64,000 nt of DNA, from contig NZ_OMOI01000001.1 of NCBI RefSeq assembly GCF_900302485.1, positions 1,054,001 through 1,118,000 on the forward strand. Reading direction: 5' to 3'. Shown here piece by piece: positions 24,037 to 45,002 of this stretch (the first letter of the stretch is position 1; each line of letters starts with the position of its first letter). Both the position numbers and the translations under genes were made by a program. This stretch comes from Aliiroseovarius pelagivivens (lineage in GTDB: Bacteria; Pseudomonadota; Alphaproteobacteria; Rhodobacterales; Rhodobacteraceae). The notes under the pieces were generated by a model that saw nothing but the letters and a program-made list of their open reading frames with translations, was not told the origin of the DNA and did no database searches.

Positions 24037-24831
24037 TTACTCGGCGTTGAAAACAAACAGCGTTTCGCCGTTGATCTTGTAATCGTTGATCAACGCTTTC
24101 GCTGTGTCCGACACAAGCCACGCTTCCAGTTTTGCCGCAAGCTCGGTCTCTACGTGCTCGTGCTTGTCCGGGTTCACGGGTAAATAGGCGTATTGGTTGA
24201 ACAGGATCGGATCGCCCGCATAAAGCAGCGCCAGATTGCCTTTATTGCCAAAGTTCAGCCAGCTTGCCCGATCTGCCATGATATAGGCGTCCAAACCTGC
24301 GGCTGTGTTCAATGCTGCACCCATACCGGCCCCAACCGCTTTGTACCACGCGCCTTCGGGTGCGATCTCGGCCGCCGCCCACAGGCTGAGTTCTTTCTTG
24401 TGGGTGCCGCTGTCATCCCCGCGGCTAACAAAGGGGGCTTGTGCGGTCATGATCTGTTTCAGTGCGCCCGCCGCGGTTTCGGACTCGGAAACTTTTGCGT
24501 CATCCGTAGACGGGCCGATGAAAACGAAATCGTTATACATGATCTCGCGGCGATGAGTGCCAAAGCCACCCGCCAGAAACATGTTTTCGGCCTTGCGAGA
24601 GTGCACGAGTATGGCGTCCACGTCCCCGGCCTCGCCCAGTTTAATCGCTTGGCCGGTGCCGACGACCAGAAGCTGAACTTCGATCCCGGTATCTTCTTTG
24701 ATCTGGGGCAGCAGAATGTCGGACAGACCCGAGTTATGGAACGACGTGGTGACCGCAAGCTTCATCTCGTCCGCGATCGCTCCGGTGGCCAGAAGGGTCG
24801 CTGTGAGGGCGGCGAAAACGGTTCGTTTCAT
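24037..24831 (-). CDS. tupA: tungstate ABC transporter, substrate-binding protein
   Basis: A 264-residue periplasmic protein with the signal peptide MKRTVFAALTATLLATGAIA. It carries the TupA oxyanion-binding pattern: TTSFHNSGLSDILLP, VVGTGQAIKLGEAGDVDAIL and SRGDDSGTHKKE. These differ from molybdate-binding ModA and support selectivity for tungstate. It is the third gene of tupB-tupC-tupA; its start overlaps the ATPase stop. A formate dehydrogenase about 5 kb away is a likely user of the metal. Confidence 0.93.
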   Translation of the reverse strand: MKRTVFAALTATLLATGAIADEMKLAVTTSFHNSGLSDILLPQIKEDTGIEVQLLVVGTGQAIKLGEAGDVDAILVHSRKAENMFLAGGFGTHRREIMYNDFVFIGPSTDDAKVSESETAAGALKQIMTAQAPFVSRGDDSGTHKKELSLWAAAEIAPEGAWYKAVGAGMGAALNTAAGLDAYIMADRASWLNFGNKGNLALLYAGDPILFNQYAYLPVNPDKHEHVETELAAKLEAWLVSDTAKALINDYKINGETLFVFNAE

Positions 24832-25541
24832 TCTACGATGTCTCCATTGAGAAAAGCTTGTGCTTGTGGACTGGGTGTGCCGCCAAAAAACGTTTCGGCA
24901 GAGCTGTGTTCGTGGATGTTGCCGTTCAGAAGGAACAAGACTTCGGTTGCTAATCGCCGAGCCTGACCCATGTCGTGTGTCGACATGATCAATCGCGTGC
25001 CTGCAGCTGCCGCCCGTGTCAAAATCTCTTCGATTTCGCGGGTGGCGCGGCCATCAAGAGAGGCGCAGGGTTCATCAAGGAACAGAAGTTCGGGCTGGGT
25101 GACGAGGGCTCGGGCAAGGGCCAGCTTCTGCCGTTCGCCACCTGACAGGTATGTCGCAGGACGCTCTAGCATGTCGCCCAATCCGACCTCGATGGCGGCC
25201 CGAGTGGCGCGGTCACGGGCCTCGGACCGCGATTGGCCTGTCAGTCGCAGCGGATAGGCCAGATTGCCCAGCACGGACCTTCGCATCATGATCGGTTGCT
25301 GAAAAACAAACGCCTGATGAACGCGCGCTTCTTCGGGCGGGCAAGCCCAGTGAATGCTGCCTTCCCCCAATCGTGCAATGCCATGCATCATGCGCAGAAG
25401 CGACGTCTTACCTGCGCCGTTCGGGCCAATCACAATGGTCACGCCTTTGGCCTGTAGTTCGAGATTTACAGGCCCAACAAGGGTCTTGCCTGCACGACGC
25501 AACGTAGCGTCTTCAAGCGTTACGGGGAATAGATTGCTCAC
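24828..25541 (-). CDS. tupC: tungstate ABC transporter, ATP-binding protein
   Basis: A 237-residue ABC ATPase with Walker A (GPNGAGKTS), signature LSGGERQKLALARAL, Walker B (LLFLDEP) and the switch His in MSTHD. It energises uptake through TupB. The start is GTG at 25541, overlapping the permease stop (GTGA) and preceded by GGAGGG. Neighbouring tupA and tupB fix the substrate class. Confidence 0.92.
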   Translation of the reverse strand: MSNLFPVTLEDATLRRAGKTLVGPVNLELQAKGVTIVIGPNGAGKTSLLRMMHGIARLGEGSIHWACPPEEARVHQAFVFQQPIMMRRSVLGNLAYPLRLTGQSRSEARDRATRAAIEVGLGDMLERPATYLSGGERQKLALARALVTQPELLFLDEPCASLDGRATREIEEILTRAAAAGTRLIMSTHDMGQARRLATEVLFLLNGNIHEHSSAETFFGGTPSPQAQAFLNGDIVE

Positions 25542-26239
25542 CAGCGCCCTCCACGTTCAGTCCGCCCGATCACGTGAATGGCAAAGTTTACCGCAATCGC
25601 CATGGCGATCAGCACAAAGCCCAGGCCAAGGGCCAGAGAAAACTCGCCTTTGCCGGTTTCAAGTGCAATCGCGGTGGTAAGAACCCGGGTGTGATGGTCG
25701 ATATTGCCGCCCACCACCATGATCGCGCCGACCTCGCCGATGGCGCGACCAAACCCGGCCAACGACGCCGTTAATAGCGCCCGACGACCGTCCCACAAGA
25801 GGGCCTGCACCCGTTGTGTCTGCGTCGTGTTCATCGAGATCAGAAGATCGTGATAGTCGGACCAAAGCTCGCGCAGGGCCTGATGGGCAATGGAGGCGAT
25901 CAGCGGCACAATGATGATGACTTGGGCAATAATCATCGCGGTCGGCGTGAACAATAGGCCCAAGACCCCGAAAGGACCCGACCGGCTGAGCATCACGTAG
26001 ACAATCAGGCCTACCACGACAGGAGGCAGCCCCATAAGCGCGTTCAGAACAGCAATTGTGATCCGTCGTGCGCGAAACCGTCGGACTGCCAGAAGCGCGC
26101 CAAGCGGCAGCGCAATGGCCGAGGCGATCACAAGCGCCGTCAGCGTGACATATAAAGACCTTAGCGTGATTTCGACCAGGTCCGCGTCAAGCGTTACAAG
26201 TAGCCAAAAAGCCTCGGTTATCCCGGACCATATTTCCAA
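25538..26239 (-). CDS. tupB: tungstate ABC transporter, permease
   Basis: A 233-residue inner-membrane permease with five to six membrane helices and the cytoplasmic coupling segment with LAGFGRAIGEVGAIMVVGG. No ATG is available near the N terminus. TTG at 26239 is preceded by GAAGGA at ideal spacing; the alternative TTG at 26254 lies within that site and lacks its own. It is the first gene of tupBCA, with its promoter in the gap shared with the divergent sensor kinase. Confidence 0.9.
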   Translation of the reverse strand: MEIWSGITEAFWLLVTLDADLVEITLRSLYVTLTALVIASAIALPLGALLAVRRFRARRITIAVLNALMGLPPVVVGLIVYVMLSRSGPFGVLGLLFTPTAMIIAQVIIIVPLIASIAHQALRELWSDYHDLLISMNTTQTQRVQALLWDGRRALLTASLAGFGRAIGEVGAIMVVGGNIDHHTRVLTTAIALETGKGEFSLALGLGFVLIAMAIAVNFAIHVIGRTERGGRW

Positions 26240-26507
26240 GATGTCATCCTTCAACGCGTTTCATCGGAACGGGGTCATAATGTCCGACCCGCTGTGGATC
26301 GATCAACCATATCTTAGGCAACAGCAAAACCGAATTCTGGCAAAGAAGCGGCGTATTGGACATTTTGACCGTCCCGAATTGCCTCTTAGCTTCTCAGCCT
26401 GCCAATTCGACCACCCCCCGCACTGCACAATGGCGATGACACTGGCATGCAATGCCGAGTCTGCTAAGCTTGATGGGGATGTCGGCAGAAGCCGGAAAGG
26501 AAGCGAT

Positions 26508-30037: not shown

Positions 30038-31246
30038 TTACTCTGCGGGCTGTGGGGCCTTATTGCCTTCCGCATCCCGCTCGGCGGCTTTGTATTCTTC
30101 CAACCAGATCGAATGGTGTTGCTCAGCCCAAGCTTCGTCCACTTCGCCCGAGCTCATCGCGTCATAGGCACCTTCCATACCGACCGAGCCGATATAGATA
30201 TGCGCCAGAACGATGGCCGTCAGAACAAAGGCAAGGATCGCGTGCCAGGCCTGCGCCAGCTGCATTTCCTCTTGCGGGGCAAGCTGCACCTGCAGCTCTC
30301 CAAGCCCGATCATATGGGGTAGACCCGTAGCGTTCAGAAGGTTGAACGTCTTCGCAAAGAGCGGCAGATCGAAGGGGAACAACAGGGACACGCCTGTCAG
30401 GGCGATCGAGCCTCCAAACAGAACAACGGACCAGAAGATCATTTTCTGACCGGCGTTGAACTTCTTTGCAGGTGGGTGATCATGCCCGAATAAAATGCCG
30501 CCGCCTTTCTTCAGCCAGTGAAGGTCAGTGCGATTGGGGATGTTGTGAACAACCCACATCACAAAGATCATCACGAGGCCAAGGATGAATGCCCAGGACA
30601 CGTTGTTGTGCACCCATTTGGACCAGACCAGCAGGAAGGCATTGGCGTCTTTTCCGAAGAGAGGCACAAGGAACACGCGGCCAAACAGGACCAGCAGTCC
30701 GGTAACCCCGAGCAGGATGAATGATCCCGCCAAAAGCCAGTGACCAAAACGCTCAATCGCTTTGAAGCGGGTCACTGTGGTTCCGGCGCGGCCATCGTCG
30801 ATCTTGATCCGACCATGCAGAACATAGAAGGCCAAAAGCGCGACCAAAGTGCCGACCAACAACCAACCGCCATAGGTTCGAAGCGTGGTGTCGCGGAATT
30901 CGAGCCAGCGCATGCCGCCGTCCTGAACCAAAACAGTTGCGACATCACCACCGGCCGAGACGTTTACGTTCGCTGAGCCATAGCGCAGGGCGCGCCATGT
31001 TTCGGCGTCTGAGACGCCTCCCAGAGTGCCAAGCTGTGCAGCAATGCCTGCTGCGCCGTTCGGGTCGCCCACGGCATCAGACCGGAAGCTGTCGTCAAGT
31101 TTCTGCCCGGCCTGACGGGCCAGAATATCGTCCAGCGTCTGCGCGCCGCCAGTGGCGGAACGGTCGACTGCCGGAGTGTCTTCCTGTGCGAACCCTGCCG
31201 GAGCAAGCGTTAGCATCAGGACAAGTGCGAGTGCCATGCGCAGCAT
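30038..31246 (-). CDS. formate dehydrogenase gamma subunit (cytochrome b)
   Basis: A 402-residue membrane subunit that takes electrons from the Fe-S subunit to the quinone pool. It has a cleavable signal peptide (MLRMALALVLMLTLAPAGFA), a periplasmic N-terminal region of about 100 residues, and four or more membrane helices with His residues fitting heme b ligation (FKAIERFGHWLLAGSF, WVHNNVSWAF, HMIGLGEL, LAHIYIGSVGMEGAYDAM). AAGGAGG precedes the ATG at 31246. It belongs to the FdoI/FdnI-like family and is last of the three structural subunits. Confidence 0.92.
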   Translation of the reverse strand: MLRMALALVLMLTLAPAGFAQEDTPAVDRSATGGAQTLDDILARQAGQKLDDSFRSDAVGDPNGAAGIAAQLGTLGGVSDAETWRALRYGSANVNVSAGGDVATVLVQDGGMRWLEFRDTTLRTYGGWLLVGTLVALLAFYVLHGRIKIDDGRAGTTVTRFKAIERFGHWLLAGSFILLGVTGLLVLFGRVFLVPLFGKDANAFLLVWSKWVHNNVSWAFILGLVMIFVMWVVHNIPNRTDLHWLKKGGGILFGHDHPPAKKFNAGQKMIFWSVVLFGGSIALTGVSLLFPFDLPLFAKTFNLLNATGLPHMIGLGELQVQLAPQEEMQLAQAWHAILAFVLTAIVLAHIYIGSVGMEGAYDAMSSGEVDEAWAEQHHSIWLEEYKAAERDAEGNKAPQPAE

Positions 31247-31325
31247 GGTCGCTCCTCCTTGAAACAAGTGTTTGAAGTGGGGCGGCCCCGTTGCAGGGCC
31301 GCCCCATGAAGGTGATCAAGACCGA

Positions 31326-31919
31326 TCAGCCACCCTTGCGCTGATAGGCTGTACCCCAGCCCCAAGCGCCAGAGCCGAAGCCACGGGCCACCACACGCTC
31401 GCGGTAGATGTTCGACACGTCGTCGCCATCCCCCGCCAGAAGCGCCTTGGTCGAACACATCTCGGCACAGATGGGCAGTTTGCCCTCGGCCAGACGGTTA
31501 CGTCCGTATTTGGCGAACTCGGCGGTCGAGTGGTTTTCCTCGGGGCCACCGGCACAGAAGGTACATTTGTCCATCTTGCCACGGCTTCCGAAGTTGCCAG
31601 CCTGCGGGTATTGCGGCGCGCCGAAGGGGCACGCGTAGAAGCAATAACCACAACCGATGCACAGGTCTTTCGAGTGCAACACCACACCGTCTTCGGTCTG
31701 ATAGAAGCAATCGACCGGGCAAACGGCCATGCAGGGCGCATCCGAACAATGCATACAGGCGACCGAGATCGACCGTTCGCCGGGCTTACCATCTTCGATG
31801 GTCACAACACGGCGGCGGTTGATACCCCAAGGCACCTCATGCTCGTTCTTACACGCGGTTACACAGGCGTTGCACTCAATGCAGCGCTCGGCGTCACAGA
31901 GAAACTTTGCTCTTGCCAT
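31326..31919 (-). CDS. formate dehydrogenase beta subunit, Fe-S
   Basis: A 197-residue electron-transfer subunit with four cysteine groups for four [4Fe-4S] clusters: CIECNACVTACKNE, CMHCSDAPCMAVCPVDC, CIGCGYCFYACPFG and CTFC with CAEMC. It lacks the C-terminal membrane anchor of E. coli FdnH/FdoH, so it is presumably held by the gamma subunit. It has no signal of its own and probably travels through the TAT pathway with the alpha subunit. It starts 12 bases after the alpha subunit stop. Confidence 0.94.
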   Translation of the reverse strand: MARAKFLCDAERCIECNACVTACKNEHEVPWGINRRRVVTIEDGKPGERSISVACMHCSDAPCMAVCPVDCFYQTEDGVVLHSKDLCIGCGYCFYACPFGAPQYPQAGNFGSRGKMDKCTFCAGGPEENHSTAEFAKYGRNRLAEGKLPICAEMCSTKALLAGDGDDVSNIYRERVVARGFGSGAWGWGTAYQRKGG

Positions 31920-31931
31920 TCTCTTTCCTCC

Positions 31932-34826
31932 TTACGCTGCCCAGATTTTGCAAAGAGTACATTTCGTCTCTTGCATCTGGGTCACTGAGTCATAGCCATA
32001 GGTCTGCGCGGTGTTGGTGCTTTCGCCCAACACATACGGATCAGCCCCGTCGGGATATTTGTGCCGCAGGTCTTCGCCTTGGAAGTGACCGCCGAAATGG
32101 AACGGCATGAAGGCAACGCCTTCGCCGACACGTTCGGTGACCATCGCCATGACCTTGACCTTGCCGCCTTCCGGGCCTTCGACCCAGACCTGTTCGCCAT
32201 CACGCACACCAAGGTTGTTGGCGTCACGTGTGTTCACTTCGACAAACATGTCCTGCTGAAGCTCGGCCAGCCACGGGTTAGACCGGGTTTCATCCCCGCC
32301 GCCCTCGTATTCAACCAAGCGCCCCGAGGTCAGAACGATCGGATACTCTTGCGAGAAATCGTTCTTCTGGATTGAGGCATACAGCGTCGGCAGACGATAG
32401 TCGTGACGATCTTCATAGGTCGGATAATCCGCCACAAGATCACGACGCGGCGTGTAAAGCGGCTCGCGGTGCAGCGGGATCGGATCCGGGAAGGTCCACA
32501 CAACAGCACGGGCCTTGGCGTTACCGAACGGTGCACATTCGTGCTTGATCGCAACCCGCTGGATACCGCCCGAAAGGTCGGTTTTCCAGTTGGTCTTCGG
32601 ACCGGCCACGGCCTCGATCGAGGCGCGTTCGTCATCCGTTAGATCACCGTCCCAACCCAAGTCCATCAGCATCTGCATCGTAAACTCGGGGTACCCGTCC
32701 TGGATTTCCGAGTTTTTCGAATAGACGCCTTCGGCCAGCAGGTTGTCACCGTCACGCTCCACACCGAAACGGGCGCGGAAGGTCAGGCCACCTTCGGACA
32801 CGGCTTTCGACATGTCGTAAAGGTTCGGCGTTCCGGGGTGACCCATTTCCGCCGTTCCCCAGCACGGCCATGGCAGACCGTAATAGTCTCCGTCAGCCGG
32901 ACCACCCACAGCTTTCAGCGTGGTGCGATCAAATGTGTGCTGGTTTTCCATGTGCAGCTTGATCCGCTCGGGGCTTTGACCCGTATAGCCGATGGTCCAC
33001 AGACCCCTGTTGAATTCACGCGTGATGCTTTCAACATTGGGGGTGACGTCGTCTTCCATCTCGATGTTGCGGAAGAAGCGATCCGACCAGCCGAACTTCT
33101 TGGCAAACAGGCCCATAATCACATGGTCTGGCTTGCATTCGAATAGCGGGTCAACGATCTTTTCGCGCCACTGAAGCGAACGGTTCGACGCCGTGACCGA
33201 GCCACGGGTTTCGAACTGTGTCGCTGCCGGAAGCAGATAGACGCCATCAGTGCGGTCATGCAGGACGGCCGAGACGGTGGGATACGGGTCGATCACGACC
33301 AGCATGTCCAGCTTCTCCATCGCCGTCTTCATTTCCGTCTGACGGGTTTGCGAGTTCGGCGCGTGGCCCCAAAGAACCATGGCACGCACCTTGTCGGGGT
33401 TGTCCATATTCTCGGGATCTTCCAGAACGCCGTCGATCCAGCGGCTGACAGGAATACCCTTCAGGTTCTGAAGGTTCTTTTCCTTGCCATCTGCGCCGGT
33501 CACCTTGGCAAACTGACCGCTCAACCAGTCACCATCTTCACCCCAAACACGTGCCCAGTGGGCCCATGCGCCACCCGACAGACCGTAGTAGCCGGGCAGG
33601 GTGTGGCTAAGAACGCCAAGGTCAGTAGCGCCTTGCACGTTGTCGTGACCACGGAAGATGTTGGTGCCACCACCTTCAGCACCCATGTTCCCCAGCGCAA
33701 GCTGAAGGATGCAATAGGCGCGGGTGTTGTTGTTGCCGTTGGTGTGCTGCGTACCACCCATACACCAGATCACGGTGCCGGGGCGGTTGTTGGCCAGCGT
33801 ATGCGCGACGCGCTTCAGCTGTTCACCGGGGGTGCCGGTGACGCGTTCGACCTCTTCAGGCGTCCACTTCTTCACCTCGTCACGGATTTGATCCATGCCC
33901 CAGACACGGGTGCGGATGAACTCTTTGTCCTCCCAACCGTTCTCGAAGATATGCCACAGAATGCCCCAAACCAGCGCTACATCGGTGCCGGGACGGAAGC
34001 GGACATATTCGTCAGCATGGGCGGCCGTGCGCGTGAAGCGCGGGTCGCAGACGATCAGCGGCGCGTTGTTTTCTTCCTTGGCTTTCAACACGTGCAGAAG
34101 CGACACGGGGTGTGCTTCGGCCGGGTTGCCGCCAATGATGAAGATCGCGCGGCTGTTGTGGATGTCGTTGTAGCTGTTGGTCATGGCGCCGTAGCCCCAT
34201 GTGTTCGCTACGCCGGCCACTGTTGTCGAGTGACAGATACGCGCCTGGTGATCCACGTTGTTCGTGCCCCAATAGGCGGCGAACTTGCGGAACAGATACG
34301 CCTGTTCATTCGAATGTTTGGCCGAGCCGAGCCAGTAGACGCTGTCCGGGCCACTTTCTTCCCGAATGTTCATCATACCGTCGCCGATCTCGTCGATCGC
34401 TTGCTCCCAGCTGATGCGCTTCCACTCGCCGCCCTCTTTCTTCATCGGGTACTTCAGGCGACGTTCGCCATGCGCGTGTTCACGCACCGAGGCGCCTTTC
34501 GCACAATGGGACCCAAGGTTGAAGGGGCTGTCATAACCGGGTTCCTGACCGGTCCAGACACCATTTTGAACTTCTGCCACGACCGTGCAACCGACCGAGC
34601 AGTGCGTACAGACCGATTTCAAGGTCTCTACTGCGCCATCGGCAGCCGTAGCAGCCGTAGCTTGCGTCACCGTTCCTCCGGTGGCGCTGATTGCGGCAAG
34701 ACCACCAATGGCCAGGCCGCTGCCACGCAGAAACGCGCGGCGGTCGACAGATTTCTCTGCGACATCGGAAAGGATACTTGTCCGCTGGGGGCGTCTCGCA
34801 ACCCCGTTGGTCTTTTTCCTCAGCAT
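31932..34826 (-). CDS. formate dehydrogenase alpha subunit (Mo/W-bis-MGD, Cys type)
   Basis: The 964-residue catalytic subunit that oxidises formate to CO2 in the periplasm. A TAT signal (DRRAFLRGSGLAIGG) is near residue 28, a [4Fe-4S] motif CTHCSVGC with a later Cys follows, and the metal ligand is Cys198 in RICHSTTVAG, not selenocysteine. Typical molybdopterin-domain segments are readable (VYWLGSAKHSNEQAY, MGGTQHTNGNNNTRAYC). The frame has no internal stop. The nearby tungstate importer suggests that tungsten may be used, but sequence alone does not separate Mo from W. Confidence 0.95.
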   Translation of the reverse strand: MLRKKTNGVARRPQRTSILSDVAEKSVDRRAFLRGSGLAIGGLAAISATGGTVTQATAATAADGAVETLKSVCTHCSVGCTVVAEVQNGVWTGQEPGYDSPFNLGSHCAKGASVREHAHGERRLKYPMKKEGGEWKRISWEQAIDEIGDGMMNIREESGPDSVYWLGSAKHSNEQAYLFRKFAAYWGTNNVDHQARICHSTTVAGVANTWGYGAMTNSYNDIHNSRAIFIIGGNPAEAHPVSLLHVLKAKEENNAPLIVCDPRFTRTAAHADEYVRFRPGTDVALVWGILWHIFENGWEDKEFIRTRVWGMDQIRDEVKKWTPEEVERVTGTPGEQLKRVAHTLANNRPGTVIWCMGGTQHTNGNNNTRAYCILQLALGNMGAEGGGTNIFRGHDNVQGATDLGVLSHTLPGYYGLSGGAWAHWARVWGEDGDWLSGQFAKVTGADGKEKNLQNLKGIPVSRWIDGVLEDPENMDNPDKVRAMVLWGHAPNSQTRQTEMKTAMEKLDMLVVIDPYPTVSAVLHDRTDGVYLLPAATQFETRGSVTASNRSLQWREKIVDPLFECKPDHVIMGLFAKKFGWSDRFFRNIEMEDDVTPNVESITREFNRGLWTIGYTGQSPERIKLHMENQHTFDRTTLKAVGGPADGDYYGLPWPCWGTAEMGHPGTPNLYDMSKAVSEGGLTFRARFGVERDGDNLLAEGVYSKNSEIQDGYPEFTMQMLMDLGWDGDLTDDERASIEAVAGPKTNWKTDLSGGIQRVAIKHECAPFGNAKARAVVWTFPDPIPLHREPLYTPRRDLVADYPTYEDRHDYRLPTLYASIQKNDFSQEYPIVLTSGRLVEYEGGGDETRSNPWLAELQQDMFVEVNTRDANNLGVRDGEQVWVEGPEGGKVKVMAMVTERVGEGVAFMPFHFGGHFQGEDLRHKYPDGADPYVLGESTNTAQTYGYDSVTQMQETKCTLCKIWAA

Positions 34827-34930: not shown

Positions 34931-35125
34931 TCAGAACTTGGCGGATGCGAAATAGGCGCGGGTTTGCGCCGTATCCTGCAGACGGGTCGACTGCAGGTCG
35001 GGTTCCGGGGCCGCTTCGGCCTCTTGCCCGCTGGCCATGACGGTCACTGCAGCCGCTGGGGCTGCCGTTCCGGCCAGTTTCAGAAAGTCGCGGCGGCTTG
35101 TCGCTTCCTTGTCCTTCTGGGTCAT
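34931..35125 (-). CDS. small TAT-signal protein of the formate dehydrogenase operon
   Basis: A 64-residue protein that is mostly a twin-arginine signal: SRRDFLKLAGTAAPAAAVTV, then a short polar tail ending ARAYFASAKF-like. Proteins of this type lie at the head of many fdh operons. GAGGAGG lies before the ATG at 35125. It may pilot subunits to the TAT machinery or be a tiny periplasmic subunit; the role is not known. It lies between the TorD-like chaperone and the alpha subunit. Confidence 0.82.
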   Translation of the reverse strand: MTQKDKEATSRRDFLKLAGTAAPAAAVTVMASGQEAEAAPEPDLQSTRLQDTAQTRAYFASAKF

Positions 35126-35174
35126 GAGAGTTCCTCCTCTCTGTTGGTGACGGTTGCCCGCCAATATGTGCGGA

Positions 35175-35810
35175 TCACTCCGCGCTCATCCGGAAGCCTT
35201 CAGCCTCGATTTCCATGAACACCCGGCCTGCCTGGCCGACGGCGGCATAGAAGACCGAGTTCTTGGCGGCTTCCAAATCCGTGAAAAAGTGACCAGCCCA
35301 GGGGCCGATATGCGTATTGAAGAACAGCTTCTGGTCCGCGATGTCATGGTCGCGCCCAAAGCGGCCGGCGATCATCGCGCCCATCATCTCCATCAGCGAT
35401 GCGATGTTGTCTTCCGGCTCATAGACGTTTTCGGCGCGGGTCAGGCCCCGTGTGGCCATGTCCTGACGCAGTTTCGCCAGCGGCTTTTCGTTCAGAAACC
35501 CGGTCAGATAGTAGCTGGCATAGGGCAATAGCTCGCCCCGGCCCAAGCCGATGAACAGCTTGTTGAATTCGCTTTCCACACCTGCGGGCTTGGACAGTTT
35601 TGCAATCCGGGCCAGCGCGTTGATGGCGGTGCCAAGAGGCGTGTCATCCCCTGTCAGGCCAGCAGTCATTGAAAGGGTTTCAGTACTGGGCGGCGTGGCA
35701 AGCAACAGCCCGAGGAAATTGTAAAGGTCAGCCCGCATCCGGTCTTCGTCGATTATACGCGGGGCGTCAGTGGCGCTCATGGGCGGCTCCTGCAAAAGTG
35801 TCTGTGTCAT
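35175..35810 (-). CDS. TorD/DmsD-family maturation chaperone
   Basis: A 211-residue all-helical cytosolic protein of the TorD family. These chaperones bind the TAT signal of a molybdo-enzyme and hold it until the cofactor is inserted. Visible are DLYNFLGLLLATPPS at the N terminus, LLPYASYYLTGFLNEKPLA and EPEDNIASLMEMMGAMI, the usual conserved blocks. The start at 35810 overlaps the DUF3306 stop (ATGA) and has GGAGG before it; ATG at 35780 also has a good site. Its client is most likely the alpha subunit encoded just downstream. Confidence 0.9.
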   Translation of the reverse strand: MTQTLLQEPPMSATDAPRIIDEDRMRADLYNFLGLLLATPPSTETLSMTAGLTGDDTPLGTAINALARIAKLSKPAGVESEFNKLFIGLGRGELLPYASYYLTGFLNEKPLAKLRQDMATRGLTRAENVYEPEDNIASLMEMMGAMIAGRFGRDHDIADQKLFFNTHIGPWAGHFFTDLEAAKNSVFYAAVGQAGRVFMEIEAEGFRMSAE

Positions 35811-36430
35811 CCGTGTGCCTCCGATTGTGGCACATCGAATGCGAAACGCATACGGCGTGAGGCGGTCGGCGCCATGTCTTCGGTCGGATCTGGATCAGAG
35901 AGGGTATAGTCAGGGACGTGATCAACAGGAGCGGGATCGTCGACTAGCTCCCTTGGCTGGTCGTCCTCGTCATCCGTCGAAGCCAGAAGGGGCTCTTCGG
36001 GTTCAGGAGCTTCTTCGGCGGTGGCCGCCGCCTCTGCTTGCCGCGCCATCTCGAGCACATGTTCGGTCATGCCCTTGCCAACCTGATAGGCGGTCTGCAG
36101 GTTCTCGATCACGCAAGCGGCATCGGTAAAATCTTCGCCGTAGTCAACCAACCCGTCGACATTGGCCAGAACAGGGTTCAACCGCCACAAACGGCGCAAC
36201 GCACGGGTGCGGATGCGTGCGGGAACAGCGTCTGTCAGGAACACCTTGAAATCGTCACCTTCTTCCAAAGTGTCGGGGTCGGGCAGTTCCAGCTCGGCTA
36301 GAATGTCTTCGTCGGTGCGTTCGGCCAGCTCTGCCTCGCGCTCTTGTTGCGCTTCGGCGTCAGCAAGGCGTGCGGCGTCTTGCTCTTCCGCCAAAACTGC
36401 GGCTTTGCGGCGGGCCCAGAAGTCGCTCAT
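35807..36430 (-). CDS. DUF3306 protein
   Basis: A 207-residue soluble, strongly acidic protein matching DUF3306: it begins MSDFWARRKAAV, has a conserved core around DFKVFLTDAVPARIRTRALRR, then WRLNPVLANVDGLVDY, and ends with a low-complexity Glu/Asp/Pro tail and a basic RRMRFAF motif. AAGGAG precedes the ATG at 36430. It overlaps DUF3305 and the TorD-like gene. DUF3305 and DUF3306 accompany formate dehydrogenases of this type; their function is not established. A role in cofactor insertion or assembly is inferred from context. Confidence 0.87.
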   Translation of the reverse strand: MSDFWARRKAAVLAEEQDAARLADAEAQQEREAELAERTDEDILAELELPDPDTLEEGDDFKVFLTDAVPARIRTRALRRLWRLNPVLANVDGLVDYGEDFTDAACVIENLQTAYQVGKGMTEHVLEMARQAEAAATAEEAPEPEEPLLASTDDEDDQPRELVDDPAPVDHVPDYTLSDPDPTEDMAPTASRRMRFAFDVPQSEAHG

Positions 36431-36966
36431 TGAAGACGCTCCTTCTTGGCTTGTATCGGCGAGCGATAGACATCGGCCATCTGCGAGATCCGCGCGTCTC
36501 CGACGCCATCCTCGACCGCGCCAATGTCTTTCTTGTCGCGCTTGCGTTTCTTGAACACCTCTTCGCGATGATGTGTGTCGACGAAATCGCTGACCCAAGC
36601 CTGAATGGCGGGCGGCATGGCGATCTTTTCGATGATGTCTTCGCCGTTATCCGCATAGTCCTGCGCCTCGTAGGGCGAGGCCGTCAGCAACACGAGTTCA
36701 AGCGGGCGGGCGTCATCTTCAGTTTCGCGCATCACGGCGTAGAGGGAAGGGGACTGGGCGTTTAAGCCGTGCAGATAAGCTTCGGTATCAGCGCCATGTA
36801 ACTCAAGCGTTGGAGTGGCTGCGTGATAGTCGGTTATCTCGCCCTCTTGGCGAAGTACCCGCCAATCCGCTTGCTTGGCACCGGGCAGCACATCGACAGC
36901 TTTCCACGTCCACGCAGCCCACCGGGTCACGCCCGGAGCGCGGCGCAAAACGACGCCAATTGGCAT
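36427..36966 (-). CDS. DUF3305 protein
   Basis: A protein of about 179 residues matching DUF3305: MPIGVVLRRAPGVTRWAAWTW, WKAVDVLPGAK, then a basic C-terminal tail (FKKRKRDKKD). The start is uncertain: family members begin at or near the MPIGVV segment, so I use 36966, but longer in-frame starts at 37032 and 37083 exist and none has a strong ribosome site. First gene of the formate dehydrogenase operon, overlapping DUF3306 by four bases. Function unknown. Confidence 0.83.
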   Translation of the reverse strand: MPIGVVLRRAPGVTRWAAWTWKAVDVLPGAKQADWRVLRQEGEITDYHAATPTLELHGADTEAYLHGLNAQSPSLYAVMRETEDDARPLELVLLTASPYEAQDYADNGEDIIEKIAMPPAIQAWVSDFVDTHHREEVFKKRKRDKKDIGAVEDGVGDARISQMADVYRSPIQAKKERLQ

Positions 36967-37257
36967 CGCGTCAAACCTGTTTGGATCGTGGATCACGTTC
37001 TGGATGTCCTCCCTTGCGACATCCTGCGCCATGCTTGGGCGCCCGCAAACGCCTATTTGCGGCCTTCGGGCCATTCGGGACAAATTGTCAACACGCCCAC
37101 TGGCCGATCGGCGGTGCGGGTCGAAATGTCCAATCTGACAAAAACCATCGGATTATTGATGCTTGGTCTGATTGGCGAATCGTCGCGGAAAAATCGGACC
37201 CCAAGGCATGGGGGGTGCCGAATAAAACCGGTTTACGCCTGACTGAAATCATGGCTA

Positions 37258-37274
37258 GTTGATTGCCGGTCAAC
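37258..37274. promoter_or_regulatory. palindrome in the formate dehydrogenase divergent promoter
   Basis: GTTGA (37258-37262) and TCAAC (37270-37274) form a perfect inverted repeat around seven bases, in the roughly 340-base gap between DUF3305 (minus) and the ferredoxin gene (plus). It resembles an FNR-type box but the half-site spacing is one base too long. It may bind another dimeric regulator such as the NtrC-like protein. The rest of the gap shows no gene. Confidence 0.35.
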
Positions 37275-37308
37275 ACCACTGAATGGGGTTGAATTGCAGG
37301 GTAATCCG

Positions 37309-39267
37309 ATGGGGGGAAACTTGGATAAGACACTGATACTATGTGATTGTTCCGGGAGTCAGGCCATCGACGGCACAGCCCTGTCAAACGCAACAGGGGC
37401 CTCGGTCTCGAAGCTGCATTCAGCGCTGTGTACGGCGGAAATCGAACAGGTCGCAGCCGCCATTTCCGGGGGAGACGCAATTATTTGTTGCGCTCAGGAA
37501 CACCGTCTTTTCGAAGCCCTGGCCGAAGAAATTGGAACCCCTGCACCCCCTGTTCTGGACCTGCGCGATAGGGCGGGTTGGTCCGAGGATCCGGCTTCGA
37601 AACTACCCAAAATGGCCGCGTTGGTGGCCGAAGCTGCATTGCCTGCCCCATCAGAGAAGGTGCTGGATGTGCGGTCCGAAGGGCTGTGTCTGATCATCGG
37701 GGCGGAACCCGTTGCGATCCCGGCTGCCGAGGCATTGAAGGATCATCTTGGGGTGACCGTTCTGCTGACGGACGGCGCGGATCTGCCGGTGACCCGAGCC
37801 TATGATGTGATCCGCGGACGCCTAAAATCTGCACAAGGCGCGCTGGGGCAGTTCAGCGTACAAATTGACGCGCTGGAACAATTGGATCCTGCCGGTCGTG
37901 GTGCCCCACGCCTGACCGCGCCGCGCGATGGTGGGCAGTCGGAATGTGACATCATTTTGGACCTAACTGGCGACATACCGCTGTTTCCGGCACCGGAAAA
38001 GCGCGAAGGGTATCTGCGTGCAGACCCCGCCCATGCGCCATCGATTTCCAAGGTCGTCATGCAGGCTTCGCATCTTGTCGGAACTTTCGAAAAGCCATTG
38101 TATATCAAAGCAGAACCTATGCTTTGTGCCCATTCGCGCGCCAGCCAACCGGGCTGTTCTCGTTGTCTGGATGCTTGCCCGACCGGGGCCATTCAGCCGA
38201 ACGGAGACCACGTCATCATCGACCCGATGATTTGCGCTGGTTGTGGCGCGTGTTCGTCGCTGTGCCCATCGGGGGCGATTAGCTATGACGCGCCGCCGGT
38301 GGACCTTACAATGCGACGCGTCCAGACGCTGGCCCGGGCCTATCTGGAGGCGGGCGGCGAAGCGCCGCGCCTTTTGGTTGTGAACGATCACGGATCCGAG
38401 ATGATCAGGCTGTCGGCGCGCTTTGGGCGCGGCTTGCCTGCTGATGTTATCCCGCTGGAACTGTCAGCACTTGCGGCTTTCGGTCATGCCGAGATGCTGG
38501 CCGCTGCCGCGGCAGGCTTTGCCGACGTAACACTTGTGTTGGCACCGGGCGTCGATGCCGACGTCATCACCTATGAGGCCGAACTGGCCCGCGCTTTGGG
38601 GGCAGGGGTCACGCTGTTGGACTCCAGTGATCCCGATGCGATGTCGGATGCGCTGTATGATGCTGACGCCCCTGCGCCGGTCGCCTCGCCGGTGCGCCCT
38701 GTGGGCAGCCGCCGTCAGGTTGCGCGTCAGGCCGCCATCGCGCTGAACCCCGGTGTGGAAGCTTTGTCACTGCCCGAAGGTGCACCTTATGGCGCGACGC
38801 TGATCGATACGGATGCCTGCACGCTGTGCCTGTCTTGTGTATCGCTTTGCCCCTCGGGTGCATTGGGAGACAATCCAGACATGCCGCAACTGCGCTTTCA
38901 GGAAGACGCCTGCTTGCAATGCGGGATCTGCGCATCCACCTGCCCGGAAAAGGCCATTACGCTTGCGCCTCAGATGAACCTGACCCCGGCGGCGCTGGAT
39001 CAACAGGTGCTTCACGAAGAAGAGCCGTTTGCCTGTGTTGAATGCGGCGCGCTGTTCGGTGTGAAGTCCACCATTGAAAAGATCACCGAGAAGCTGGCAG
39101 GCAACCATGCGATGTTTGCCAACCCGGAAGCGGTGCGCATGATACAGATGTGTGATGACTGTCGCGTGAACGCGCAGTATCACGCCAAGAACAATCCGTT
39201 TGAAGGGGGCGAACGGCCCCGCCCGCGCACCACGGCAGACTATCTGTCCAAGCGGCGCGATCACTGA
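37309..39267 (+). CDS. multi-cluster 4Fe-4S ferredoxin of the formate dehydrogenase locus
   Basis: A 652-residue cytosolic iron-sulfur protein. Two ferredoxin modules are visible: CSRCLDACPTG and CAGCGACSSLCPSG at about 282-320, then CTLCLSCVSLCPSG and CLQCGICASTCPEK at about 503-548, giving up to four [4Fe-4S] clusters. Further CxxC pairs (CVECG, CDDC) lie near the C terminus. The parts between look like non-catalytic alpha/beta domains. The ATG at 37309 is preceded by a weak AGG; TTG at 37294 is possible. It is divergent from the fdh operon and heads an operon with DUF6494 and an Mrp ATPase, so it probably carries electrons for, or to, formate dehydrogenase or its assembly. Confidence 0.88.
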   Translation: MGGNLDKTLILCDCSGSQAIDGTALSNATGASVSKLHSALCTAEIEQVAAAISGGDAIICCAQEHRLFEALAEEIGTPAPPVLDLRDRAGWSEDPASKLPKMAALVAEAALPAPSEKVLDVRSEGLCLIIGAEPVAIPAAEALKDHLGVTVLLTDGADLPVTRAYDVIRGRLKSAQGALGQFSVQIDALEQLDPAGRGAPRLTAPRDGGQSECDIILDLTGDIPLFPAPEKREGYLRADPAHAPSISKVVMQASHLVGTFEKPLYIKAEPMLCAHSRASQPGCSRCLDACPTGAIQPNGDHVIIDPMICAGCGACSSLCPSGAISYDAPPVDLTMRRVQTLARAYLEAGGEAPRLLVVNDHGSEMIRLSARFGRGLPADVIPLELSALAAFGHAEMLAAAAAGFADVTLVLAPGVDADVITYEAELARALGAGVTLLDSSDPDAMSDALYDADAPAPVASPVRPVGSRRQVARQAAIALNPGVEALSLPEGAPYGATLIDTDACTLCLSCVSLCPSGALGDNPDMPQLRFQEDACLQCGICASTCPEKAITLAPQMNLTPAALDQQVLHEEEPFACVECGALFGVKSTIEKITEKLAGNHAMFANPEAVRMIQMCDDCRVNAQYHAKNNPFEGGERPRPRTTADYLSKRRDH

Positions 39268-39281
39268 GATAGGAGACCTCC

Positions 39282-39476
39282 ATGAGCGACGATTTCAACA
39301 TGTCGATGCGCAAATTCCTGAAACAGGTTGGCGTAACTTCGCAACAAGCCATCGAAGAGGCCTTGCGCGACGCCCCCGAGACCGAGGGTAAAAGCTTCAA
39401 GGCGCGCGCGGTCATCACCATCGACGAGCTGGGCATGACCCACGAGGTCGAAGGCGACATCAAGGCACAGGAGTAA
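39282..39476 (+). CDS. DUF6494 family protein
   Basis: A 64-residue acidic protein: MSDDFNMSMRKFLKQVGVTS, then a helix (QQAIEEALRDA) and two strands (FKARAVITIDELGMTHEVEG). It fits DUF6494, a small family of unknown function seen next to formate dehydrogenase and Mrp genes in alphaproteobacteria. AGGAGA precedes the ATG. Only four bases separate it from the Mrp gene, so the two are co-translated and the products may interact. Confidence 0.8.
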   Translation: MSDDFNMSMRKFLKQVGVTSQQAIEEALRDAPETEGKSFKARAVITIDELGMTHEVEGDIKAQE

Positions 39477-39479
39477 CCC

Positions 39480-40532
39480 GTGACCCGAGAACAGGTTCTG
39501 GACGCGCTCAAGGGCGTGAACGATCCCGCTGGTGGTGACATCGTGTCTTCGGGCACGATGCGCGCGCTGAATGTGGATGGCAAAACAGTGCGGTTCGTGT
39601 TGGAAATAGATCCAGCGCGGGCCGAGGCCTATGAAGGTGTAAAGGCGCAAGCCGAGGCAGCTTTGACCGCCATCGGCGCCACAGCCAATATCGTCATGAC
39701 CGCGCACAGCGCTCCTGCCGCTCCGCCCGACCTGAAACCGCAATCTGCCGCCGCCCCTAAGGGGCCGGAAAAGATCCCGGGCGTGGATCGCATTCTGGCT
39801 GTGGCCTCGGGCAAGGGTGGGGTCGGCAAGTCGACCGTATCCGCCAACTTGGCCTGTGCGCTGGCCGCTGAAGGGCGGCGCGTGGGGCTGTTGGACGCGG
39901 ATGTCTACGGTCCATCGCAACCGCGTATGCTTGGCGTTTCGGGGCGGCCCTCCAGCCCAGATGGGAAGACCATTCTACCCTTGCGCAATCACGGTGTGAC
40001 GATGATGTCGATCGGTCTTATGACCAATGATGATCAGGCCGTCGTCTGGCGCGGGCCGATGCTGATGGGCGCGCTACAACAGATGATGACGCAGGTCCAA
40101 TGGGGTGCGTTGGACGTCTTGATCGTGGATCTGCCGCCGGGCACGGGTGACGTGCAGATGACGCTGGCGCAAAAGGCCCCGGTTGATGGCGCGATAATTG
40201 TCTCGACGCCTCAGGATGTGGCGCTTTTGGACGCGCGCAAGGGTATCGACATGTTCAATCAAATGAACGTGCCGATCCATGGTATGATCGAAAATATGTC
40301 GACCCATATCTGTTCGAATTGCGGCCACGAAGAGCACACTTTTGGCCATGGTGGCGTCGCCGCCGAGGCCGAAAAGCTGGGCGTGCCGCTCTTGGCCGAG
40401 ATCCCGCTCGACCTGCAAATCCGTTTGGCCGCTGACGGAGGCGCGCCGATCGTGACAAGCCAGCCCGACAGTCCTCAGGCGGATGCCTTCCGTCAGGTCG
40501 CCCGCGCCCTGATCAACGGAGGCCATGCATGA
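39480..40532 (+). CDS. mrp: Mrp/NBP35-type Fe-S carrier ATPase
   Basis: A 350-residue P-loop protein that holds and transfers Fe-S clusters. An N-terminal MIP18-like (DUF59) domain (REQVLDALKGVNDPAGGDIV) is followed by the deviant Walker A SGKGGVGKST near residue 110, VDLPPGTGDVQ, and the cluster-binding CSNCG near 278. The start is GTG at 39480, with AGGAG before it. In this setting it probably serves the iron-sulfur proteins of the formate dehydrogenase system rather than being only a housekeeping copy; that is inference. Confidence 0.92.
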   Translation: MTREQVLDALKGVNDPAGGDIVSSGTMRALNVDGKTVRFVLEIDPARAEAYEGVKAQAEAALTAIGATANIVMTAHSAPAAPPDLKPQSAAAPKGPEKIPGVDRILAVASGKGGVGKSTVSANLACALAAEGRRVGLLDADVYGPSQPRMLGVSGRPSSPDGKTILPLRNHGVTMMSIGLMTNDDQAVVWRGPMLMGALQQMMTQVQWGALDVLIVDLPPGTGDVQMTLAQKAPVDGAIIVSTPQDVALLDARKGIDMFNQMNVPIHGMIENMSTHICSNCGHEEHTFGHGGVAAEAEKLGVPLLAEIPLDLQIRLAADGGAPIVTSQPDSPQADAFRQVARALINGGHA

Positions 40533-41239
40533 CCGACCCGCTGGTCTTTCCGCCTATGATGTCGGGCCACGCCGTCAGCGGTGTCAGCGATGCATTCGCC
40601 ACCGCACAAGCCAAGGCTGCGATGGGCTGCGATGCCGGGTTGATCGTCTATAACCTTGGTGCAAACAGCTTGTCTGCGGCGTTGGTCTTTGCACCCGAAG
40701 TGCCCTTGTCACGCGCTATGTCCATGCTGCCCACCTGTGAGGTCGGGTTCCAGAACGCCCTTGGCGCGTTGGCACCTCCTGAGGTTGCAGTGCATTTGGA
40801 ATGGGGCGGCGGCATCCGCGTGAATGGCGCACGGTGCGGCACGTTCCGCGTGGCGGCGTCGGACCCGAATGTCGACGAGGTGCCGGACTGGTTGGTCGTG
40901 GGGTTTACCCTGCCGCTTTGGCCCGAAAGTGACCGCCCCGGCGACACGCCGGACGCCACAGCACTCTATGCCGAAGGCTGCGTCGATGTAGAGGCGCCCC
41001 GCCTGCTGGAAGCCTGGGCGCGTCATACACTGAACTGGATCAACCGTTGGGAACAGGACGGACCGCGCTCGTTGCATGAAGAATGGCGCGGCTTGGCGTA
41101 TGCGATGGGTGAAGAGGTCAGCCAGAACGGTTTGATTGGCACCTTCATGGGCGTTGATGAGAATTTCGGAATGCTTTTACGCGATGACGAAGGCACCACC
41201 CATCTTATTCCCCTGAGCAGCCTTCTGGAGACCCTCTAA
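40529..41239 (+). CDS. biotin/lipoate protein ligase-like protein (DUF4444)
   Basis: A 236-residue protein. The N-terminal 180 residues fit the biotin/lipoate ligase fold (VHLEWGGGIRVNGARCGTFRV, DWLVVGFTLPLWPES), and the last 60 residues match DUF4444 (LIGTFMGVDENFGMLL), which resembles the C-terminal domain of biotin ligases. The start overlaps mrp by four bases and the stop overlaps DUF6505. It has no clear glycine-rich ATP loop of BirA, so catalysis is unproven. The partner or substrate in the formate dehydrogenase cluster is unknown. Confidence 0.8.
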   Translation: MTDPLVFPPMMSGHAVSGVSDAFATAQAKAAMGCDAGLIVYNLGANSLSAALVFAPEVPLSRAMSMLPTCEVGFQNALGALAPPEVAVHLEWGGGIRVNGARCGTFRVAASDPNVDEVPDWLVVGFTLPLWPESDRPGDTPDATALYAEGCVDVEAPRLLEAWARHTLNWINRWEQDGPRSLHEEWRGLAYAMGEEVSQNGLIGTFMGVDENFGMLLRDDEGTTHLIPLSSLLETL

Positions 41240-41718
41240 TGAAACTAGCCATTGCGACCCATCTGGATGACAGCGACACGCGCGTCTTTGCTAATCACGC
41301 CCGCACGGGGGAATGGTGCGTTTCAGGTGGGTTCGAGTTTTCGAACTGGGCCGAGGCGGATCTGGTGGGCAAGGCGCGTCAGGCGTTCTCGAACGGGTGG
41401 TTCGGCTTGGACACGGGTGGGCGTGTAACATTTGTTGCCGTCACCGCAGTAGAGGCGGTCGAGGTTGAACGGCTTACAAGCCAGCTGGCGCAGCATTTCG
41501 TGACATATTATGGCGCGCCGGACATCGATGCGGCTCGCCCCGTCGCGGCTGATGAAATCGCTCATATGGCCGACCTATGTGACGAACACGAAGACGGTAC
41601 GCTTTTGACGGTTGCGCGCGAATTGACGGACGCAGGTGTTCGCGAAAGCTATCGCGCGATCCAGCCACAACAGGCCCAGTTGGATCAGTTCGCAGTGCAC
41701 GGATCTTTGGACGAGTGA
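41239..41718 (+). CDS. DUF6505 family protein
   Basis: A 159-residue soluble protein with the conserved block GEWCVSGGFEFSNWAEADLVG, then QAFSNGWFGLD and a predicted alpha/beta fold. This fits DUF6505, which I know only from clusters like this one. It starts in the stop of the ligase-like gene (one-base overlap) and is the last gene of the operon with ferredoxin, DUF6494, Mrp and the ligase-like protein. No function can be assigned. Confidence 0.8.
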   Translation: MKLAIATHLDDSDTRVFANHARTGEWCVSGGFEFSNWAEADLVGKARQAFSNGWFGLDTGGRVTFVAVTAVEAVEVERLTSQLAQHFVTYYGAPDIDAARPVAADEIAHMADLCDEHEDGTLLTVARELTDAGVRESYRAIQPQQAQLDQFAVHGSLDE

Positions 41719-41893: not shown

Positions 41894-42130
41894 ATGTCCA
41901 AACGCTCCCTTTCCGTAGCTTTAGAATCCAGTCCCGAGATCATCCGCTTGGCTGTTCTGTTGTACGTCAGATTTCAACTGTCGCTTCGAAAAGTAGAGGG
42001 TCTTCTGCACGAGCGTGGCGTTGATGTCAGCCATGAAGCGGTACGATACTGGTGGCGTCGGTTTGGTCCCCTGTTCGCAGCTGAGATTTGGAAGAAACGC
42101 GTGGAGCGATTGCGGTGCTGGCCTGACTAG
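41894..42130 (+). pseudogene. truncated IS6-family transposase
   Basis: The 78-residue frame matches the N terminus of IS6/IS26-type transposases (RLAVLLYVRFQLSLRKVEGL, VSHEAVRYWWRRFGPLF, then AAEIWKKRVERLR). Homology stops after about 75 residues; the DDE catalytic core is missing and no downstream frame continues it. A possible left end starts near 41837 (GGGTTCGGTC). It is a decayed remnant in the 547-base gap between DUF6505 and norC; 41719-41893 holds nothing else I can call. Confidence 0.75.
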
Positions 42131-42265: not shown

Positions 42266-42718
42266 ATGCGAGAAGTCATGACTAAGACCATGGCACGTAA
42301 CGTGTTCTATGGCGGATCGCTGTTCTTCATCGTGGTTTTTTTGCTCTTGTCGGCGCATTCGGTTCGCTATGTGGTGACCCAGTCGACGGCAAATGCACCA
42401 CTGACGGACAGTGTCGCCCGTGGCAAACATGTGTGGGAAAAGAACGCCTGCATCAACTGCCACACATTGATGGGAGAAGGTGCTTACTTCGCCCCCGAAC
42501 TGCAAAACGTAATGACCCGTTGGGGCGTGCAAGACGAACCTGAAGACGCTTTCGAAGTGTTGAAAGGTTGGATGGAAGCACAGCCAACCGGCATCGAAGG
42601 GCGTCGTCAGATGCCGAATTTCAACCTGAGCGACGAAGATATTCGCGATCTGGCGGAGTTTTTCCGTTGGGTGAATACGATCGACGCGCAGGGCTGGCCG
42701 CCGAACGAGGCGGGCTAA
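42266..42718 (+). CDS. norC: nitric oxide reductase subunit C
   Basis: The 150-residue membrane-anchored cytochrome c that feeds electrons to NorB. One N-terminal helix (NVFYGGSLFFIVVFLLLSAH) and a periplasmic domain with heme motif CINCH near residue 62 and a distal Met (RRQMPNF). GGAGG lies five bases before the ATG at 42266. First gene of norCBQDEF; expression is probably driven by the FNR/Dnr box at 42195. Confidence 0.96.
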   Translation: MREVMTKTMARNVFYGGSLFFIVVFLLLSAHSVRYVVTQSTANAPLTDSVARGKHVWEKNACINCHTLMGEGAYFAPELQNVMTRWGVQDEPEDAFEVLKGWMEAQPTGIEGRRQMPNFNLSDEDIRDLAEFFRWVNTIDAQGWPPNEAG

Positions 42719-42739
42719 GGCCGGACGAGGAGACAAGAC

Positions 42740-44104: not shown

Positions 44105-44105
44105 T

Positions 44106-44924: not shown

Positions 44925-45002
44925 CGCTTTGTTGCGACCGGCCAACGGGTCGGTCGCAAACGCATTCAACTCTGGACGCTAGCCCGATACCCGAGGTTCC
45001 CC

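Follow-up and report, generated by a model that had tools for sequence, protein, structure and literature searches.

A conserved accessory gene set divergent from an FDH3-class formate dehydrogenase operon, with a probable role in enzyme assembly

A 64,000-nucleotide stretch of Aliiroseovarius pelagivivens DNA (contig NZ_OMOI01000001.1, positions 1,054,001 to 1,118,000, assembly GCF_900302485.1; hereafter the window, to which all coordinates refer) carries two divergent gene sets, an FDH3-class formate dehydrogenase operon on the minus strand and a tightly packed accessory set on the plus strand. We consider it probable that this locus is a dedicated assembly unit for a membrane-anchored formate dehydrogenase, FdhABC, that is exported by the twin-arginine translocation (Tat) route. 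The minus-strand order is DUF3305, DUF3306, TorD/NarJ-family chaperone, formate_TAT-like protein, FdhA, FdhB and FdhC; the plus-strand order is polyferredoxin, DUF6494, Mrp, a biotin protein ligase (BPL)-like protein with a DUF4444 tail, and DUF6505. Profile matches and open reading frame (ORF) coordinates placed every gene named in a preliminary description of this DNA where that description had put it.

30038..31267, minus strand: FdhC, cytochrome b561-type gamma subunit (TIGR01583, 138.2 bits, cut-off 115.85; PF01292)
31326..31919, minus strand: FdhB, FDH3-class beta subunit (NF038355, 345 bits, cut-off 240)
31932..34826, minus strand: FdhA, catalytic subunit (PF00384/PF01568/PF04879; motif DRRAFL, ligand region ARICHS)
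34931..35164, minus strand: small Tat-signal protein, formate_TAT-like (TIGR02811, 31.7 bits, below the cut-off of 48.45)
35175..35810, minus strand: TorD/NarJ-family chaperone (PF02613, E 1.2e-29)
35807..36598 (ORF as listed), minus strand: DUF3306 (PF11748, E 1.2e-16)
36427..37083, minus strand: DUF3305 (PF11749, E 3.6e-42)
37294..39267, plus strand: HdrA/HycF-like polyferredoxin, 657-codon ORF, likely start 37309 or 37321
39282..39476, plus strand: DUF6494, 64 amino acids (PF20104, E 1.5e-28)
39480..40532, plus strand: second, fdh-linked Mrp/ApbC-type ATPase (PF10609, E 8.9e-101; PF01883)
40529..41239, plus strand: BPL-fold protein with DUF4444 tail (PF16917, 268 bits, E 5.5e-80; PF14563, E 4.6e-17)
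41239..41718, plus strand: DUF6505 (PF20115, E 1.1e-78)

Within the accessory set, 14 bases separate the ferredoxin stop from DUF6494 and 3 bases separate DUF6494 from Mrp, and the Mrp and ligase-like genes overlap by 4 bases (ATGA), as do the ligase-like gene and DUF6505 by 1 base (TAATG). The listed DUF3306 ORF is over-long, with a likely true start at an ATG near 36430, judged from MSDFW in the translation.

The dehydrogenase belongs to the FDH3 class by the score of FdhB. A Tat signal (DRRAFL) in FdhA and a membrane cytochrome b subunit, above the cut-off of its model, are both present by sequence, and because of this twin-arginine motif and the membrane-bound FdhC the mature enzyme should face the periplasm. 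By far the best solved relative of FdhA and FdhB is PDB entry 9vap: FdhA matches chain A at 1411 bits over query residues 25-962, with the same Cys-His pair and the ARICHS region common to both, and FdhB matches chain B at 334 bits, its sole PDB match at E<=1e-25. A 2026 review identifies 9VAP as SoFdhAB of Shewanella oneidensis, an oxygen-tolerant enzyme with Cys-ligated tungsten (W) and five [4Fe-4S] clusters, of which FdhB holds four and FdhA one (PMC13397495).

Co-occurrence with FDH3 across genomes

Gene families were profiled in 115 alphaproteobacterial genomes, each of a different family except G000 and G022. FDH3 genomes were defined by a match to NF038355 (FDH3_beta) over its cut-off; 108 genomes had some match, but 92 of these fell below it and were dropped, leaving 16 of 115, with G001 counted through joined fragments (240.1 bits). 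DUF3305 was found in 17 genomes, namely all 16 FDH3 genomes and G071, and the polyferredoxin (at least 318 bits) in the same 17, a 166-bit match in G053 being left out of the count. G071 is very probably an FDH3 genome as well, since the relevant contig of this fragmented genome bears FdhA and ends before FdhB. DUF6505 over its cut-off occurred in eight genomes, all within the FDH3 set (a match below cut-off in G091 was dropped), and the BPL-like gene in 11, comprising ten FDH3 genomes and G071; the latter count rests on PF16917 (at least 125 bits) and not on DUF4444, and the next two matches, at 115 and 96 bits, are canonical BPLs on inspection. Fisher tests, in which G071 was counted against the association and kinship was ignored, returned 1e-18 (core), 2e-8 (DUF6505) and 1e-9 (BPL-like gene). 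The preliminary description had treated the genes as one fdh-linked unit, and the confinement of DUF3305, polyferredoxin, DUF6505 and the BPL-like gene to the FDH3 genomes and G071 bears this out. It had also named wide occurrence without this dehydrogenase as the outcome that would speak against such a unit; this was found in part for DUF6494, five of whose 19 carriers lack FDH3 (the others being 13 FDH3 genomes and G071), and not for DUF3305, DUF6505 or the BPL-like gene.

DUF6494 is thus less FDH3-specific than the other accessory families. In three genomes that lack FDH3 (G016, G053 and G086; loci L167, L169 and L171), DUF6494 and sdhB stand on opposite strands with 50 to 390 bases between them, and in G028, G087 and G071 DUF6494 is 1.0 to 3.3 kb from sdhAB, not with fdh. 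A role near iron-sulfur respiratory enzymes generally would fit both the fdh and the sdh settings.

A second sample comprised 198 genomes of the window's own family, with DUF3305 as stand-in for FDH3. DUF6505 over cut-off and DUF3305 were each present in 98, both in 95 and neither in 97, so that they occur together in 95 of the 101 genomes with either. Among the six mismatches, the locus is cut by contig ends in G122, G236 and G260, and in G178 an incomplete DUF6505 lies close to a contig end with a TupA-like gene as its neighbour. The FDH3 locus of G208 lacks DUF6505 and includes DUF6494, DUF6352 and the BPL-like gene. The remaining mismatch, G180, retains ferredoxin, DUF6494, Mrp and DUF6505; its locus has no BPL-like gene, its genome contains no DUF3305, and the 6.6 kb upstream hold no fdh gene. 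In G162, whose DUF6505 match was dropped as below cut-off, DUF6494 and Mrp stand beside a broken DUF6505, and neither fdhA nor fdhB is present within the 16 kb examined. The tie between DUF6505 and fdh is therefore strong but not absolute, and remnants occur.

Gene neighbourhoods were also compared in 80 named DUF6505 loci, the best of at least 588, all 80 being close kin of the window and not independent. The flanks contained the ligase-like gene in 80 loci, Mrp in 78, ferredoxin in 76, DUF6494 and DUF3305 in 74 each and FdhA in 72; neighbours were called as stop-to-stop ORFs with phmmer score thresholds, and the few missing DUF6494 and Mrp genes may be threshold effects. Seven of the eight loci without FdhA sit on contigs that end 1.0-8.1 kb upstream of DUF6505, and the eighth (L199) has 10 kb upstream with no FdhA in it. 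The gene order is not due to chance.

The accessory proteins

By fold the ligase-like protein is a member of the BPL family (PDB 3bfm, 331 bits, E 3.4e-98), and a protein modification step had been proposed for it in the preliminary description. The lysine of the KWPND motif, which we take to be the catalytic lysine of BPLs, is absent from all 91 fdh-type rows in an alignment of 93 sequences, where D (36), E (24), G (16), A (6) and others stand in its place; it is present solely in the two canonical BPL references, which came from G028 and G087 in the same search and are encoded away from fdh. The GRGRxGR motif, presumably the substrate loop, is present in both canonical BPLs, whereas each of the 11 fdh-type rows aligned with them shows a gap there. 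Since both elements are gone, a modification step appears unlikely and the proposal is not supported; that the protein serves as a binding scaffold is the better guess. DUF6505 adjoins the BPL-like gene constantly in the 80 named loci, occurs without it in G180 and lies apart from it in G028. No match to a known fold was obtained for DUF6505, for which the predicted model was itself weak, and we derive no function from that model.

The predicted model of the polyferredoxin is an HdrA/HycF hybrid whose flavin domain is short and largely degenerate. It comprises an N-terminal domain with four conserved cysteines, a ferredoxin dicluster, a HycF-like dicluster and a CxxC...CxxC tail. The complete flavin adenine dinucleotide (FAD) domain of HdrA is lacking, the corresponding region being shortened to ~140 residues. 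Its Rossmann motif reads GAEPVA in the window, and the second glycine is missing in 13 of 16 polyferredoxin rows, a set that leaves out G064, whose gene is broken into pieces. A distant relative of the polyferredoxin is encoded next to a different molybdoenzyme alpha/beta pair in G053 (L170 6704-12915).

The fdh-linked Mrp retains a deviant Walker A motif (GKGGVGKS) and a C-terminal CxxC (CSNC), as read from sequence, and scores 344 bits against the ApbC model NF008669, just under the cut-off of 348. The genome of the window has a separate housekeeping Mrp, 59% identical to the linked copy, so a housekeeping gene caught at the locus by chance is unlikely. Mrp occurs in 92 of the 115 genomes, with a second copy within the fdh locus in G000, G022 and G096. 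In a tree of 38 chosen rows, whose bootstrap was unsettled and whose fdh-linked members were those of the window, G022, G096 and named loci taken at every sixth place, the 17 fdh-linked copies formed one clade (99/95) that grouped with the housekeeping copies of G000 and G022 (100/100), and the housekeeping copy of G096 was placed elsewhere on a long branch. A dedicated iron-sulfur route, as put forward in the preliminary description, is plausible because the linked Mrp exists in addition to the housekeeping copy and differs from it. Two Mrp copies on long branches (C3:29654-30682 and C6:93663-94412) were also seen in G097, a genome without FDH3.

A family that the preliminary description did not name, DUF6352 (PF19879, ~343 codons), lies between the BPL-like gene (or DUF6505) and DUF6494 in the inspected non-Rhodobacterales-type loci, which is the slot taken by Mrp in the window. 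It is present in 14 of the 115 genomes, comprising 12 of the 16 FDH3 genomes, G071 and G007; in G007, without FDH3, it stands beside a TupA-like binding protein (L256 1857-3810). Thirteen of the 17 core genomes carry DUF6352, three (G000, G022 and G096) have the second Mrp instead, and G075 has neither. G057 has DUF6352, and its only Mrp is encoded on the other strand, 2 kb past fdhC (L143 16281-19901). The most economical account is that, in the lineage of the window, a recruited Mrp copy took the slot of DUF6352; DUF6352 and the fdh-linked Mrp may share a task.

For DUF3305, the match to the NCBIfam MobA-DUF3305 model NF011058 covers positions 219-370 of 382 at 83 bits, where the full-length cut-off is 820, and the DUF3305 domain forms the C-terminal part of that model. 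Matching the DUF3305 part of a MobA model points to a putative tie to cofactor delivery.

Neighbouring genes and competing explanations

One neighbour bears on the metal supply of the enzyme, namely a predicted ATP-binding cassette (ABC) transporter for which the TupA and TupB models are the closest named, both matched under their curated cut-offs.

24037..26254, minus strand: TupABC-like oxyanion ABC transporter (TupA 196 bits, cut-off 400; TupB 173 bits, cut-off 320)

TupABC-like genes recur within the flank in 41 of the 80 named loci. Near fdhC, a Cache-type histidine kinase (26058-28466, plus strand) and a sigma-54 NtrC-family response regulator (28476-29810, minus strand) may regulate the fdh locus, as relatives of both are also near fdhC in G022 (L136). 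An IS6-family transposase remnant of 78 amino acids (41894-42130, plus strand; NF033587, 57 bits, cut-off 125) lies shortly 3′ of DUF6505, and norC-, norB-, norQ- and norD-like genes (cytochrome c, COX1, CbbQ/NorQ C-terminal and VWA) follow downstream at 42266-46946 on the plus strand. FdhD was rejected as a member of the locus, its single match sitting on another contig.

From what sequence or model gives directly (enzyme class, Tat motif, conserved gene set, residue loss in the BPL-like protein, HdrA/HycF-like fold and Mrp duplication), we infer every functional step of the assembly reading as follows. By analogy with SoFdhAB, the enzyme would hold five [4Fe-4S] clusters and a Cys-ligated W or molybdenum (Mo) bis-pterin cofactor. 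The TorD-like chaperone would hold FdhA while it is cytoplasmic, and DUF3305, with DUF3306, would help to load the bis-pterin cofactor at that stage. The HdrA-like polyferredoxin may be a source of low-potential electrons or of clusters, in analogy to NapF for NapA; the second Mrp of the Rhodobacterales would place [4Fe-4S] clusters, with DUF6352 in that slot elsewhere; and the BPL-like protein and its partner DUF6505 may bind the precursor or its cofactor as a scaffold without catalytic activity. Export of the finished enzyme would come last. Against the scaffold role stands Lys45 of DUF6505, a possible acceptor that is conserved in seven of eight divergent relatives and in 61 of 61 close ones. 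A more far-reaching version is that the locus represents a hitherto unnamed assembly line in which Cys-ligated W/Mo formate dehydrogenases are built with the help of reused folds stripped of catalysis, namely a decayed-flavin HdrA/HycF hybrid and a cofactor or precursor chaperone of lysine-less BPL fold paired with DUF6505, along with an interchangeable DUF6352/Mrp slot; because of the three polyferredoxins, out of 16, that keep GxGxxA, we offer this only tentatively, as a possibility of lower probability.

An active ligase for biotin, lipoate or some other acyl group, with DUF6505, FdhA or a further neighbour as its target, would account for the BPL fold (PF16917, 3bfm), the 1-base overlap with DUF6505, the BirA-type ligase names of several database entries and the conserved Lys45, but with the KWPND lysine replaced in each of the 91 fdh-type rows and the GRGRxGR loop missing in the 11 aligned with canonical BPLs we consider such activity very improbable. 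A mature electron-transfer complex in the cytoplasm, uniting the dehydrogenase with the polyferredoxin and its partners in the manner of HdrA or formate hydrogenlyase (FHL), also seems unlikely to us. The twin-arginine motif of FdhA and the membrane subunit FdhC lead one to expect a periplasm-facing enzyme, most rows, the window included, lack the second glycine of the Rossmann motif, and no HdrB/C or hydrogenase family was found among the scanned ORFs, which cover part of the window only, the genome not having been searched for HdrBC. What such a complex would explain is an HdrA fold like that in the Fdh-Hdr complex 7bkb, a C-terminus like FHL subunit 6, the presence of the polyferredoxin in all 16 FDH3 genomes and the GxGxxA motif kept in three rows.

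The accessory genes might instead serve mainly in tungstate or molybdate handling or in W-cofactor choice, which overlaps with assembly. The TupABC-like genes of the window and of 41 of the 80 named loci, DUF6352 next to a TupA-like gene in G007 (without FDH3) and a nearest solved enzyme that contains W all fit this explanation, to which we nevertheless assign little probability: the scans run found no known metal-handling family among the accessory genes, TupA and TupB stay below their curated cut-offs, and 39 of the 80 loci have no transporter in the flank, some flanks being shortened. Finally, DUF6494 and Mrp could be general iron-sulfur housekeeping genes that merely neighbour fdh, as DUF6494 beside sdhAB in three genomes without FDH3 and Mrp in 92 of 115 genomes would allow; in G000, G022 and G096, however, the Mrp linked to fdh is an additional copy, and DUF6505 and DUF3305 keep company in 95 of 101 genomes, which makes this explanation improbable.

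If the set is the assembly equipment of the enzyme, its co-expression could determine whether other hosts are able to produce such enzymes, and DUF3305, DUF3306, DUF4444, DUF6352, DUF6494 and DUF6505 would become components of a single process that can be tested. Metal-dependent formate dehydrogenases that tolerate oxygen attract interest for CO2 reduction, according to the review cited above (PMC13397495).

Comparison with known systems

The preliminary description had called this association undescribed. For part of it there is precedent, in that the available text of Bay et al. 2015 links DUF3305, DUF3306, fer4 and fdh tat with TorD/DmsD-fdh operons, the same four families as in the window, with no function given there to the Fer4 protein (PMC4464133). 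DUF6494, DUF6505, DUF4444 and DUF6352 are absent from that text, and no paper on these four families, or on an fdh operon with Mrp or a biotin ligase in Roseobacter, was found in the open-licence PMC literature, where one paper on an unrelated subject contains the word DUF3306. The claim therefore falls for the DUF3305, DUF3306 and Fer4 association and holds for the other DUF families within that literature; the core set appears to be known by association, not by function, and the accessory set with its degenerate members appears undescribed there.

Among solved enzymes, SoFdhAB is an alpha-beta dimer with W (PMC13397495), and the ARICHS Cys-His pair that the window FdhA has in common with it does not decide the metal. 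In S. oneidensis, going by locus numbers, an FdhA/FdhB pair (SO_4509/4510) has as neighbours the chaperone FdhT, SO_4507, and SO_4506, an iron-sulfur protein (PMC5826389).

For the accessory proteins, the resemblances are partial. The BPL-like protein has its fold and C-terminal DUF4444 in common with 3bfm, which was deposited as a 'biotin protein ligase-like protein of unknown function' and is not a proven ligase; canonical BPLs, unlike the window protein, possess both the catalytic lysine and the GRGRxGR loop. The polyferredoxin shares with HdrA (7bkb, 8rvu) an N-terminal cluster domain with conserved cysteines, and its C-terminal dicluster half is likened to HycF, subunit 6 of Escherichia coli FHL (7z0t chain F); unlike either, it joins HdrA-like and HycF-like halves in one chain. 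NapF is a cytoplasmic iron-sulfur protein thought to serve the exported bis-pterin enzyme NapA. The window polyferredoxin is not a NapF member, as TIGR00402 matches its second dicluster at 38 bits against a cut-off of 102.2, and NapF is far smaller and has no HdrA-like half.

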